Source: Phaeodactylum tricornutum CCAP 1055/1 (taxonomy: Eukaryota > Bacillariophyta > Bacillariophyceae > Surirellales > Neidiaceae). Taken from it: a stretch of DNA of 64,000 nucleotides. Every line of letters starts with the position of its first letter. Positions within the stretch are counted from its first letter, which is position 1. Below the pieces are notes generated by a model, which saw only the letters and a program-made list of their open reading frames with translations, searched no databases and was not told where the DNA came from. Of this stretch, positions 13,796-32,882 are shown one piece after another. The stretch covers positions 141,814 through 205,813 of the forward strand of contig NC_011694.1 in NCBI RefSeq assembly GCF_000150955.2, written 5' to 3'. The translations under genes were made by a program, and so were the position numbers.

Positions 13796-16221
13796 TTACA
13801 TTAGGTCCATTTTCGAAATGGCCACCAGTTTCACAATGAAGTTGCAGAAAAGAACTATAGCCACCGTTGATCCCAGCATGAGCGGACCCCAGGGATCATC
13901 CCAACGTCCTGGAATGCGTGTTTTGATACGATCCGCTCGCCACAGAAAGATGTGGACGGCGTACACGCAAAAACTGAGCGAAATTGGCAGCAGAGCCAAG
14001 GCGTACCATTGGCCCCAGCCGGCACCAGTTTCATGCGAAAAGGATAGAATTCCCGAAGCGATGGTTGACAAAATAACACCGTGATGCAGCCAATGTAGGA
14101 ATGTACGTTCGTTGGCAAAGAAGACTTTGGGTTCAATCTTTTGAATTGAAGTGGGCGCCAATGGGCCATCCAGAACGTAATTCTGCCGAGAGCAAAAGGG
14201 AAAGGGCCAGCACGAAATGTCCTCCTCGTCTTCTCCATAGTCGTCGCCATCCTCGTCAGCATAGAAATTTGCTCCCGTGGTAATGGCACCTAATAGGGGT
14301 GCCTTATCACCCACCAACCCTTTGGAGGCGTTGCGGTCGGCGTTCGTGCGTCCCACAGCGGTTAGTGATCGATCGTTGACAGTTGTTCCAAACGGCAGCA
14401 AATGATTGTACACTTGGTTGGCACCAGGCCCGACACCAACAGTGGCGTCTGCCAAAATGCGTTGAGCTTGACTATCCACAATGGATTGGCGAAGCGATAC
14501 ATCGTCGATCCAGTACGGGACGGCACGCACGTCTTCCGGAAGAAGGACAGCGCAGCCGTGAACGAACTTGGAGTACTTATGGCACTCGTACAAAAATCCC
14601 GAATTTTGCAGGTCCGTTACCCACTTTGGCGGCGTGAGACTACCACCACCGAGTTCGAGTTTGATTTCCAGAACAGCGTGCGGGAAACGATGAATTTCGT
14701 TTGGTTCCAATACCCATGAAGAATCACGATGCCAGACCTTCATATCCTCCAACTCGTAGCCACGCTCCGATATCATACATAAGTTGGTATCCAAACTGAC
14801 ACGAACTGTTGCATCGAAAGGAATCTGAAAGGCGGTCCGCATGCACTGTGTACGCATGGTAGGCACAAGTTGTTTGGAAACAATGACCTGGGTGATTTCA
14901 CGGACTAGGGTTTCCCACTCGTCGGCTTCCTTTTGGGACGTGCCCGATTCAAGCATAGCTTGCTTTTTTTCCGCAATTGGGTAAGTGTTGGTTAACACCT
15001 GTTGGACCTCGGACTCGTCGACCTATAACAAATAGATAGAATGAGTACAATAGTACTCGTGCCAAGTGTCTCCGGTAATCCTACCAGCCAAAGAAAAACT
15101 TACCGTGAAGCGCTCCTTCACCGAAACGTCTCCGGTCCAGGTTTCATTGTGAGTCTTTCGTTCGAAAAAGACCAACTTAGGGTCACCCGGTCCGTACCAA
15201 CGCAAACGCAAGGCAATCGCACCTGGAGTCTTGTCCAGACGACCGTGATACAGTTCGAGTTGGTCGTTGTCCAAATAGACCGAGTTGGTAAATTGCGAAT
15301 CCGACTCACCCGTACTAGTTTTTTGTAAGAATACGGGCAAATGTCTCAGAATTGCGTACTTGACTCTCGAAACGTCTTCCGTTTTGACCCAGTATTTTGT
15401 GGTGGATCGCAAAAAGCTTTGCGAAGCGTCTTGGTTTTCCTCGGCTTGATTGTCGTTGCGCAGGGCGGCGTAAATATTGGAAAGACGCACGACAACATCA
15501 CTGTAATCACCCCGGACCCAGGCCTGGGCGTGCAAACGGTTGACGTAGAACTCCTTGCAGGCAAGATTGGGCAAGCGCTTATCGTGTTTCTTGAGAATCT
15601 TGTGAAAGCCCATGAAATTGATGTTGACATATTTTTCCAACCGCAAAAAGTCTTCCGCGATTTCGTCCGCGTTCTCTTCCAGCACGATTGGATCCCAGGT
15701 CGGATCACCCTTCCCGTCCGTCTGCTTCAACAAAGCCTCGGTTCCGAGAATCTTATGGCGAAGATCTGTCACTTGCGACAACGTAAATACTTCCACCTTC
15801 TGCATGTCCGATTCGAGGAGCTTGAGAAAATCTTCTTCCGTAATGTTTATCTTGGATGTATCCAACCCTTGTGCGTTCGTTTGCGGTGGAGCAGTCATTG
15901 ATACCACGCGGGAGGTTTCCACGGCACTGGTAAATGTGTCAAAGGCAGCGATGAAGAGATGTATTTGAGACAAGTGTGTGGGTGAGACTTGCTATCGGGT
16001 TGATATCAGCACGCCTCCTTCCGGACCCTACTTTCCGAAAGTCGTTCGCTGGCAGCTCGCACGGTGTCCTCCTACCGTTCCAGCCTTTGAATGGTAACTT
16101 ACCGCGAAGGCTTAGTCTCCGTCAGCTGCGTAATGATCTGATCGAGTCGTTCATAATGCAGGTAGTTTTCCTCACCGTATTCCGGAGCAATGTTCGCTTT
16201 TAGGTGTTCACCGTACTTCAT
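13796..16221 (-). CDS. VTC4: VTC4-type polyphosphate polymerase (SPX-VTC-DUF202), three exons
   Basis: Exons 16221-16103, 15926-15104 and 15022-13796 encode 722 residues. Introns are 176 and 81 bp, both GTAAGT...AG, and all phases agree. The protein makes polyphosphate from ATP and moves it across the acidocalcisome or vacuole membrane. Exon 1 supplies the SPX start MKYGEHLKANIAPEYGEENY. The SPX core ends in GFHKILKKHDKRLPN, the basic inositol-pyrophosphate patch. The tunnel domain keeps all expected catalytic positions: TTKYWV, ALRLRWYG, FFERKTHNETWTG, MRTAFQIPFDA, HAVLEIKL and YSKFVHG. The C-terminus has IEPKVFFANERTFLHWLHHG and three membrane helices (DUF202). Without exon 1, the frame near 15973 would start with a non-SPX sequence that is really intron. 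The residue that should be the conserved SPX Lys after YERL is Asp here. Phosphate-starvation control is expected but not visible. Confidence 0.93.
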
Positions 16222-31020: not shown

Positions 31021-31938
31021 ATGGACTTTGATCAATGTCCGGCAATAGCTCCCTTCTTTGGGTTTCTCGGCGTAGCGGCATCGACAGTTTTTGCCAGTGA
31101 GTACATTTTTATTTCCGAGGATCGCGAGGGAGCACAGTGATCGACAATGAGTTTAGATGTGTGTGTATCGGAACGTTTCCAACACAAAGATCCGTAGCCG
31201 CCAAAGAAGTGGTTTGGAAGGGACTTGGCACGCACGAAACGGAAAGAAGTGTATTGGATGCTTCGTTGGCGCTGTTCCATAGCTTCGCCTATTTGCACGG
31301 TTTCTGCGGATCTGTCGCTTATTGTGATAGCGCCACGTCCCCGTCTTCCATGTCGTGTCATCCGTTCCTCTCACATCAAATCTGCTTTTATGCTTTCTGT
31401 GATTTTAGATATGGGCGCTGCGTACGGTACCGGCAAAGCCGGAACAGGGATCATGATATCCGGCATTTCCTCACCCGATCTGATATGGAAGAATCTCATT
31501 CCCATTATTATGGCCGGTGTCAACGGGATATACGGCCTTATTACCGCTATCATTATTATCAATCAAATCGTGACACCAACACAAGATGGTCTCGGCACGT
31601 ACAGTTTATACACCGGCTTTGCGCATTTGGCTTCTGGATTATGTTGTGGTCTCTGTGGACTCGGATCCGGCATGGCCATTGGACTGGCGGGTGACGCCGG
31701 AGTAAGGGGTTGCGGATACTACGACTTTGAAACCAAAAAAGTTGTGAAACAACGAAGCGGCGGTGGACTTGCCGGCGGAGCCACGGCCGGTCGGAAAAAG
31801 AAAAAGGCCGGCGGGGGGGATCAACTATTCGTCGCCATGGTACTGATTCAAGTCTTTGCCGGTAATTTGGCACTGTATGGTTTGATCACATCCATCATTT
31901 TGACGCAAACATCGTACGTCTGTGAATACGCCAATTAG
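31021..31938 (+). CDS. V-ATPase proteolipid c-like protein lacking the proton-binding Glu
   Basis: Exons 31021-31096 and 31409-31938 give 201 residues. The 312-bp intron is GTGAGT...TTTTAG, and the split codon A|AT gives VFANMGAAYGTGKAGTG, identical in pattern to the family's VFANLGAAYGTAKSG. Four membrane helices match subunit c: CPAIAPFFGFLGVAAS, LIPIIMAGVNGIYGLITAII, the FAHLASGLCCGLCGLGSG helix with IGLAGDAGVRG, and AMVLIQVFAGNLALYGLI. In the last helix the family has FAE, with the Glu that carries the proton; this protein has FAG (GGT, 31861-31863). Helix 2 also lacks the Glu found there in subunit c''. A Lys/Gly-rich insertion of about 30 residues (QRSGGGLAGGATAGRKKKK) precedes helix 4. 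It may be a structural ring member or a specialised paralogue; a normal c gene would be expected elsewhere. Confidence 0.88.
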
Positions 31939-32882
31939 AACACGTGGCCGCAAACGCCTTGGAAAAAGTGGTACTGAATATAGCCGTCTGCTGCCTCCAC
32001 AGTCCATTGCGATTGTGAAGTGTGTATGGAACGAACGAGCGTCTGCTTACAATGTCATATTGGCATTCCAACTTCTCCTCCAACAATTCCAATACAAAAT
32101 CCATAAAAAGCCATGTCGCAAACTATTCTAGACAATCTTGCATTTTCTATCAGATTCCCAAAGGGAGGCTATGAACCGAACGAGACCAACACCTGGTTAA
32201 GTTTACTACATCAGCCAGTGGGCGAAGTCAAACTTCCAGGCTGCTTTGTTTGTGTTAGTATGCGGTACCTGTACTTCGGCGTGCGTGACCATCTTTATCC
32301 AGATTCCACGCGTCCAAGGACGGTCGTACAAACAGTCCCCTGTTCTCACCGAAGCAAGGTCCATCGACCTCGGGACTTTGCCGCCCAGGCCTCTAATACA
32401 TAAAGCGAGACCGGTGAACTTTGGTGATTGCTGACCAATGGAAGCAGTGCGTCATGGATGCCGAAAACTAGGATCCGGTTTGGTTAGGCCTCCAATGGAC
32501 GCGAGACACTCCACATTGGCATTCTTGCGACTGCATCCGAATACCGATACTATGATCAACGGTTCGATTTCAAAATTTGAGTACCGCTCAGATATAGTTT
32601 TATTCTGCGTGAGTGGTGTTATATTCCAAAATCTATAGCGTTGTGCATATTCGGCCAGGGAATGGAATCTCCCGGCACTCAATATGACTATGTAACACAG
32701 GACGATCGTCCCCGTTCATGTGACTTTCGTGAACATACTGTACCTTGGTGGCTGTCTACATACACGGCACACCATTTCACACGATAGTTCTCGGACGATT
32801 CTGGACTGAAAATTCCTACCGACCCGATACGGACATAGTATCAAGTGATCGTTTGCATAACTTAGTCCACACACGGGTTGCC
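31939..32882. other. Intergenic, no supported gene
   Basis: Follows the V-ATPase c-like gene. Several short frames without motifs. No repeat recognised. Confidence 0.4.

Follow-up and report, generated by a model that had tools for sequence, protein, structure and literature searches.

The V-ATPase subunit c, a 16 kDa proteolipid, is built as a four-helix double hairpin (TIGR01100, with PF00137 occurring twice) and has its proton-carrying glutamate in helix 4, as does subunit c′; subunit c″ is recognized by a Glu in an earlier outer helix (helix 2 of four). The same architecture is found in NtpK, the rotor subunit of the Na+-V-ATPase of E. hirae (2bl2), in which we take the Na+ ligands to be Leu61, Thr64, Gln65, Gln110 and Glu139. 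The Glu of each proteolipid moves a proton past subunit a and faces the stator arginine there (Arg735 in yeast), the Glu of yeast c″ is Glu108, and the cytosolic loops of c″ provide the main contact with subunit d (PMC10003446). How much a ring depends on its carboxylates is illustrated by a c10 F-type ring in which one cE56Q subunit was enough to eliminate the synthesis of ATP as well as ATP-driven pumping and DCCD-sensitive hydrolysis, and in which exchange of Glu for Asp lowered synthesis to ~36% (PMC8809890). Diatoms use the V-ATPase to acidify vacuoles, and the enzyme has also been connected with silica deposition vesicles (PMC7972479).

The window analysed here (the whole 64-kb stretch of DNA, to which all positions refer) contains a gene of this family on the forward (+) strand. 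This gene spans positions 31021-31938 and consists of two exons, whose spliced product has 201 amino acids. Exon 1 (31021-31096) carries residues 1-25 in full and ends one base into codon 26; it comprises the first part of helix 1 and aligns with the region of residues 9-33 in solved subunit c. It is followed by a GT-AG intron of 312 bases (31097-31408; GTGAGTAC...TTTTAG) in phase 1 (GCC A|AT), which was absent from the account of this span in a sequence-only reading made before the present analysis; without splicing, the frame of exon 1 runs into a stop 15 codons on. Exon 2 (31409-31938) supplies the rest of helix 1, helices 2, 3 and 4, and the stop codon. The spliced protein matches TIGR01100 with 132.3 bits (cut-off 61.45) and PF00137 in two stretches with 79 bits (cut-off 24), and since both scores exceed their cut-offs the similarity to V-ATPase c is not due to chance. 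At E ≤0.001 it matches 22 distinct solved sequences, the best being a plant subunit c (E 1.7e-39), whereas yeast c′ is matched less well (E 2.7e-30). The identity with the plant chain (36qu_g/7uw9) amounts to 59% over 143 aligned residues, and helices 1-4 each align with the solved c chains, which presumably come from plant (citrus), yeast and rat, as assigned from their entry codes. Judged by these matches, the gene is a member of the V-ATPase subunit c family by descent.

A canonical algal gene, L001, gives further information on the origin of this copy. L001 is a eukaryote contig in a pond metagenome-assembled genome (MAG) labelled Verrucomicrobiaceae and codes for a subunit c with the FAE motif; intron 1 of its c gene (inferred splicing) agrees with the intron of the window gene in both codon and phase. 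Because the intron positions match, the window gene appears to descend at the DNA level from an ordinary c gene and not to be a processed copy. The same MAG contains a second eukaryote contig, L005, with a c″-like gene whose earlier helix contains FCE and whose helix 4 contains FGS. Both contigs of this MAG (JAIYDP01) have introns of ~35 bases and have been binned with a bacterium.

Compared with canonical c, the window protein has a glycine in place of the helix-4 Glu, about 32 additional residues before helix 4, and the new polar residues Asn64, Gln173 and Asn178. In the spliced translation, the position of the proton-carrying Glu is taken by Gly177 (GGT, 31861-31863), so that the defining residue shared by c and c′ is lacking. 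The alignment column holds Glu in all five sequences compared, i.e., NtpK and four canonical c subunits (the solved plant, yeast and rat chains and algal L001), and thus the claim of the sequence-only reading that helix 4 lacks its Glu, with GGT at this codon, holds after splicing and in a five-sequence comparison. Helices 1, 2 and 4 contain no Asp or Glu at all, and Asp121 of helix 3 is common to the four canonical c subunits. The same reading had also pointed to the lack of the c″ Glu in helix 2; this absence is real, Gly62 standing where L005 has FCE, but it is not unusual because Gly is normal there in canonical c. By these alignments, the loss in helix 4 is the sole unusual one of the two absences. 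A proteolipid whose helix 4 lacks Glu has a precedent in c″ (comparison set: L005 and PDB chains 7uw9_c and 5tj5_B), since helix 4 of L005 reads IFGSALGLFG. The difference is that the earlier helix of c″ does carry a Glu (FCEAVAIYG in L005), where the window protein has Gly62. A glycine at position 177 would be compatible with ring packing, because the matching place in hairpin 1 is Gly in all five sequences compared.

The codon itself could be a sequencing or assembly error, as the sequence comes from one assembly only, but this explanation is barely credible considering that GGT is at least two base changes away from either Glu codon (GAA, GAG) and that the nearby residues 173 and 178 are altered too. 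Very improbable as well is that alternative splicing yields a Glu-bearing form. In this case, GCC G|GTAATT at 31862 would be joined to AATTAG|AA at 31938, removing a hypothetical intron (31862-31938, +; GTAATT...AATTAG) and leaving Glu at 177 with the remainder of helix 4 replaced. The GT and AG are correctly placed and phased (acceptor candidate at 31939) and a length of 77 bases is plausible for an intron, but homology speaks against it: the spliced frame reads on as HVAANALEKVVLNIAVCCLH, which has no helix 4 similarity, whereas the unspliced frame reads on as NLALYGLITSIILTQ, a clear helix 4 homologue that matches the solved c chains and is for this reason taken as the real one. Moreover, a tblastn search of the 64-kb window for a second c gene or a Glu-bearing helix-4 exon returned none apart from the window gene; the next rows were a match of algal c helix 2 to the gene's own helix 4 (E 0.18) and, elsewhere in the window, matches with E ≥0.24. 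Gene conversion from helix 2 to helix 4 was also considered and rejected, the two helices having 9 of 24 residues in common in the window protein against 8, 9, 8 and 7 in the canonical c subunits.

The surroundings of the lost Glu have changed as well. Gln173 (CAA, 31849-31851), located one helix turn ahead of it, is Leu in the four canonical c subunits, Asn178 (AAT, 31864-31866) is Ala or Val, and Asn64 of helix 2 (AAC, 31522-31524) is Val, Leu or Ile. The clustering of these three changes near the former Glu is suggestive, and no more than that because polar changes occur elsewhere too (T22, S46, S47, T71 and T186, all distant from the site). Formed by Asn64, Tyr67, Gln173 and Asn178, a site lined by amides and devoid of a carboxylate might still allow such a ring member to bind or pass an ion or water. 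In this respect, Asn64 is aligned with Gln65 of NtpK, one of the presumed Na+ ligands, Tyr67 is retained (Tyr68 in NtpK), and Gln173 and Asn178 are new beside the lost Glu. However, the alignment gives Met60, Val63, Asn64, Ile116 and Gly177 at the five ligand positions, so that Glu139, which NtpK keeps, is replaced by Gly and Gln110 by Ile, and the membrane carboxylate that would meet the stator Arg is gone. The predicted structure is poor, since an AlphaFold2 model of exon 2 and two L001 exons has three long helices with a mean pLDDT of only 46.5. We consider this amide-lined site improbable, and a member of the ring-forming family that has lost proton binding remains the preferred reading.

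The other large change concerns the helix 3-4 loop (residues 127-164; 31711-31824). It lies between GDAGVRG and LFV, is 38 residues long, about 32 more than in L001 by alignment, and contains 7 Lys and 2 Arg versus 2 Asp and 1 Glu (hand count), in line with the Lys/Gly-rich insertion that had been noticed ahead of helix 4 from the letters alone. An overlooked intron is not favoured as the origin of this loop: the region offers seven in-frame GT..AG pairs, but all of them retain Gly177, none yields a canonical loop, and two would delete the conserved VR.

Loss of an essential residue raises the question of whether the gene is decaying. Across the columns that are invariant in the four canonical c subunits, the window protein retains 57 of 71, and among the 14 changes, 12 have a BLOSUM62 score of ≥0. 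The only negative ones, L173Q and E177G, are both at the proton site, which N178 adjoins and to which N64 lies in a facing-helix position. These changes were compared with a neutral simulation of 3000 runs, each carried to 14 broken columns with half of the changes being transitions, that assigns all change to the branch of the window gene. Of the runs, 0.1% attained the observed mean BLOSUM62 score of 0.93 (neutral mean -0.62, sd 0.44), 18% remained without a stop codon, and none of the 3000 combined the absence of stops with equally conservative changes. The simulation counts against decay along the whole branch and not against recent relaxation. Synonymous codon choice scores 0.051, within the range of -0.041 to 0.177 of 15 neighbouring ORFs (some of which may include an intron), while random synonyms give a mean of -0.062 (sd 0.027), the largest of 1000 being 0.014. 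Simple decay thus fits the sequence poorly because 57 of 71 invariant columns are kept, 12 of 14 changes score ≥0 and the intron lies where canonical algal c has one. On the other hand, constraint may be relaxed: in leave-one-out scoring, the canonical members break 4/75, 10/81, 9/80 and 4/75 invariant columns against 14/71 for the window protein (each canonical member being compared with three sequences and the window protein with four), and since more columns are broken the window copy has evolved faster. A recent duplicate of the canonical c gene that is relaxed or decaying, still free of stops and useless to the cell, would account for the lost essential Glu, the more frequent changes at invariant columns, the low complexity of the insert and, given the stop-free share of neutral runs, the open reading frame. 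It is rather unlikely, as it agrees badly with the conservative character of the changes, the gene-like codon choice and the intact splice sites.

The reading that we favour, and hold to be fairly probable, is a paralogue of subunit c that keeps the four-helix, ring-forming fold and has lost the proton-binding carboxylate, for which reason it would be unable to carry a proton. This copy is probably unable to pump and may act as a blank in the ring, with a structural or regulatory function. In the most likely mechanism, the protein, as a blank member, would either enter a Vo-type ring or assemble into a separate one; a ring containing it could not carry protonation through a full cycle past the stator arginine, and the complex would be non-pumping or braked, with a structural or regulatory role. 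In the topology of c, the face of the helix 3-4 loop looks to subunit d and V1, and the Lys/Gly-rich loop could form a new contact on this face. By analogy with the F-type ring, we infer that a ring containing the Gly member would not pump. The sequence-only reading had proposed that such a member shifts the ion stoichiometry of the V-ATPase; a mere shift is unlikely because one non-protonatable c subunit was sufficient to abolish the activity of the c10 ring (PMC8809890). Its alternative proposal, a specialised or non-pumping paralogue, fits a Glu-less c protein that retains most family residues.

Extending this, the window protein could represent a conserved class of carboxylate-free diatom proteolipids, a fourth beside c, c′ and c″, with both hairpins blank, amides clustered where the Glu used to be and a long cationic loop facing d and V1; its members would be dedicated to a Vo that is braked or does not pump. 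This is a tentative possibility. Roles of Vo other than pumping have long been debated, and a natural proteolipid that retains the ring fold and lacks only the proton site would constitute a separation of function, making the structural and regulatory roles of the ring testable apart from acidification.

Relatives of the gene were sought in several collections. In genome_contigs, 2 of 72 stretches were relatives (L001 and L002); three scans of viral_contigs gave 0 of 12 stretches, 0 of 28 stretches and then no match, and none was found among plasmids and phages. A Gly-bearing orthologue was detected in none of these four collections, which include no eukaryote genome set. No relative came up among 386 genomes from the G002 phylum, an empty result that is uninformative for that set. 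Within the open-licence literature, the only kind searched, no diatom c paralogues or Glu-less proteolipids were named.

The second relative, L002, belongs to a MAG of Nostoc sp. JL34 and contains the same gene as L007 (L002:2866-3114, +), an ORF of 82 residues whose leader contains a GG motif. In 5 other genomes of the 217 of the family, short ORFs match it in the leader part only. The tail resembles the first helix of animal V-ATPase c (by eye, it agrees with rat c at 25 of 31 residues) and matches TIGR01100 with 36.5 bits, under the cut-off. A bold reading would be that this ORF encodes a peptide natural product mimicking V-ATPase c. Just 5′ of the peptide gene, at L002:2655-2750, there are two short repeats ending in GATAGAAAC and GATGGAAAC that look CRISPR-like by eye.

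Besides the c-like gene, the window codes for flavodoxin, arginase-like, aldehyde dehydrogenase and mitochondrial carrier proteins, a VTC polyphosphate polymerase (two ORFs) and a protein of the DUF6824 family, whose expansion in diatoms makes a diatom host plausible. The two ORFs of the VTC-domain protein (13796-15898, -) match consecutive parts of PF09359, 2-102 and then 118-234, and this gene is probably split by a short intron.
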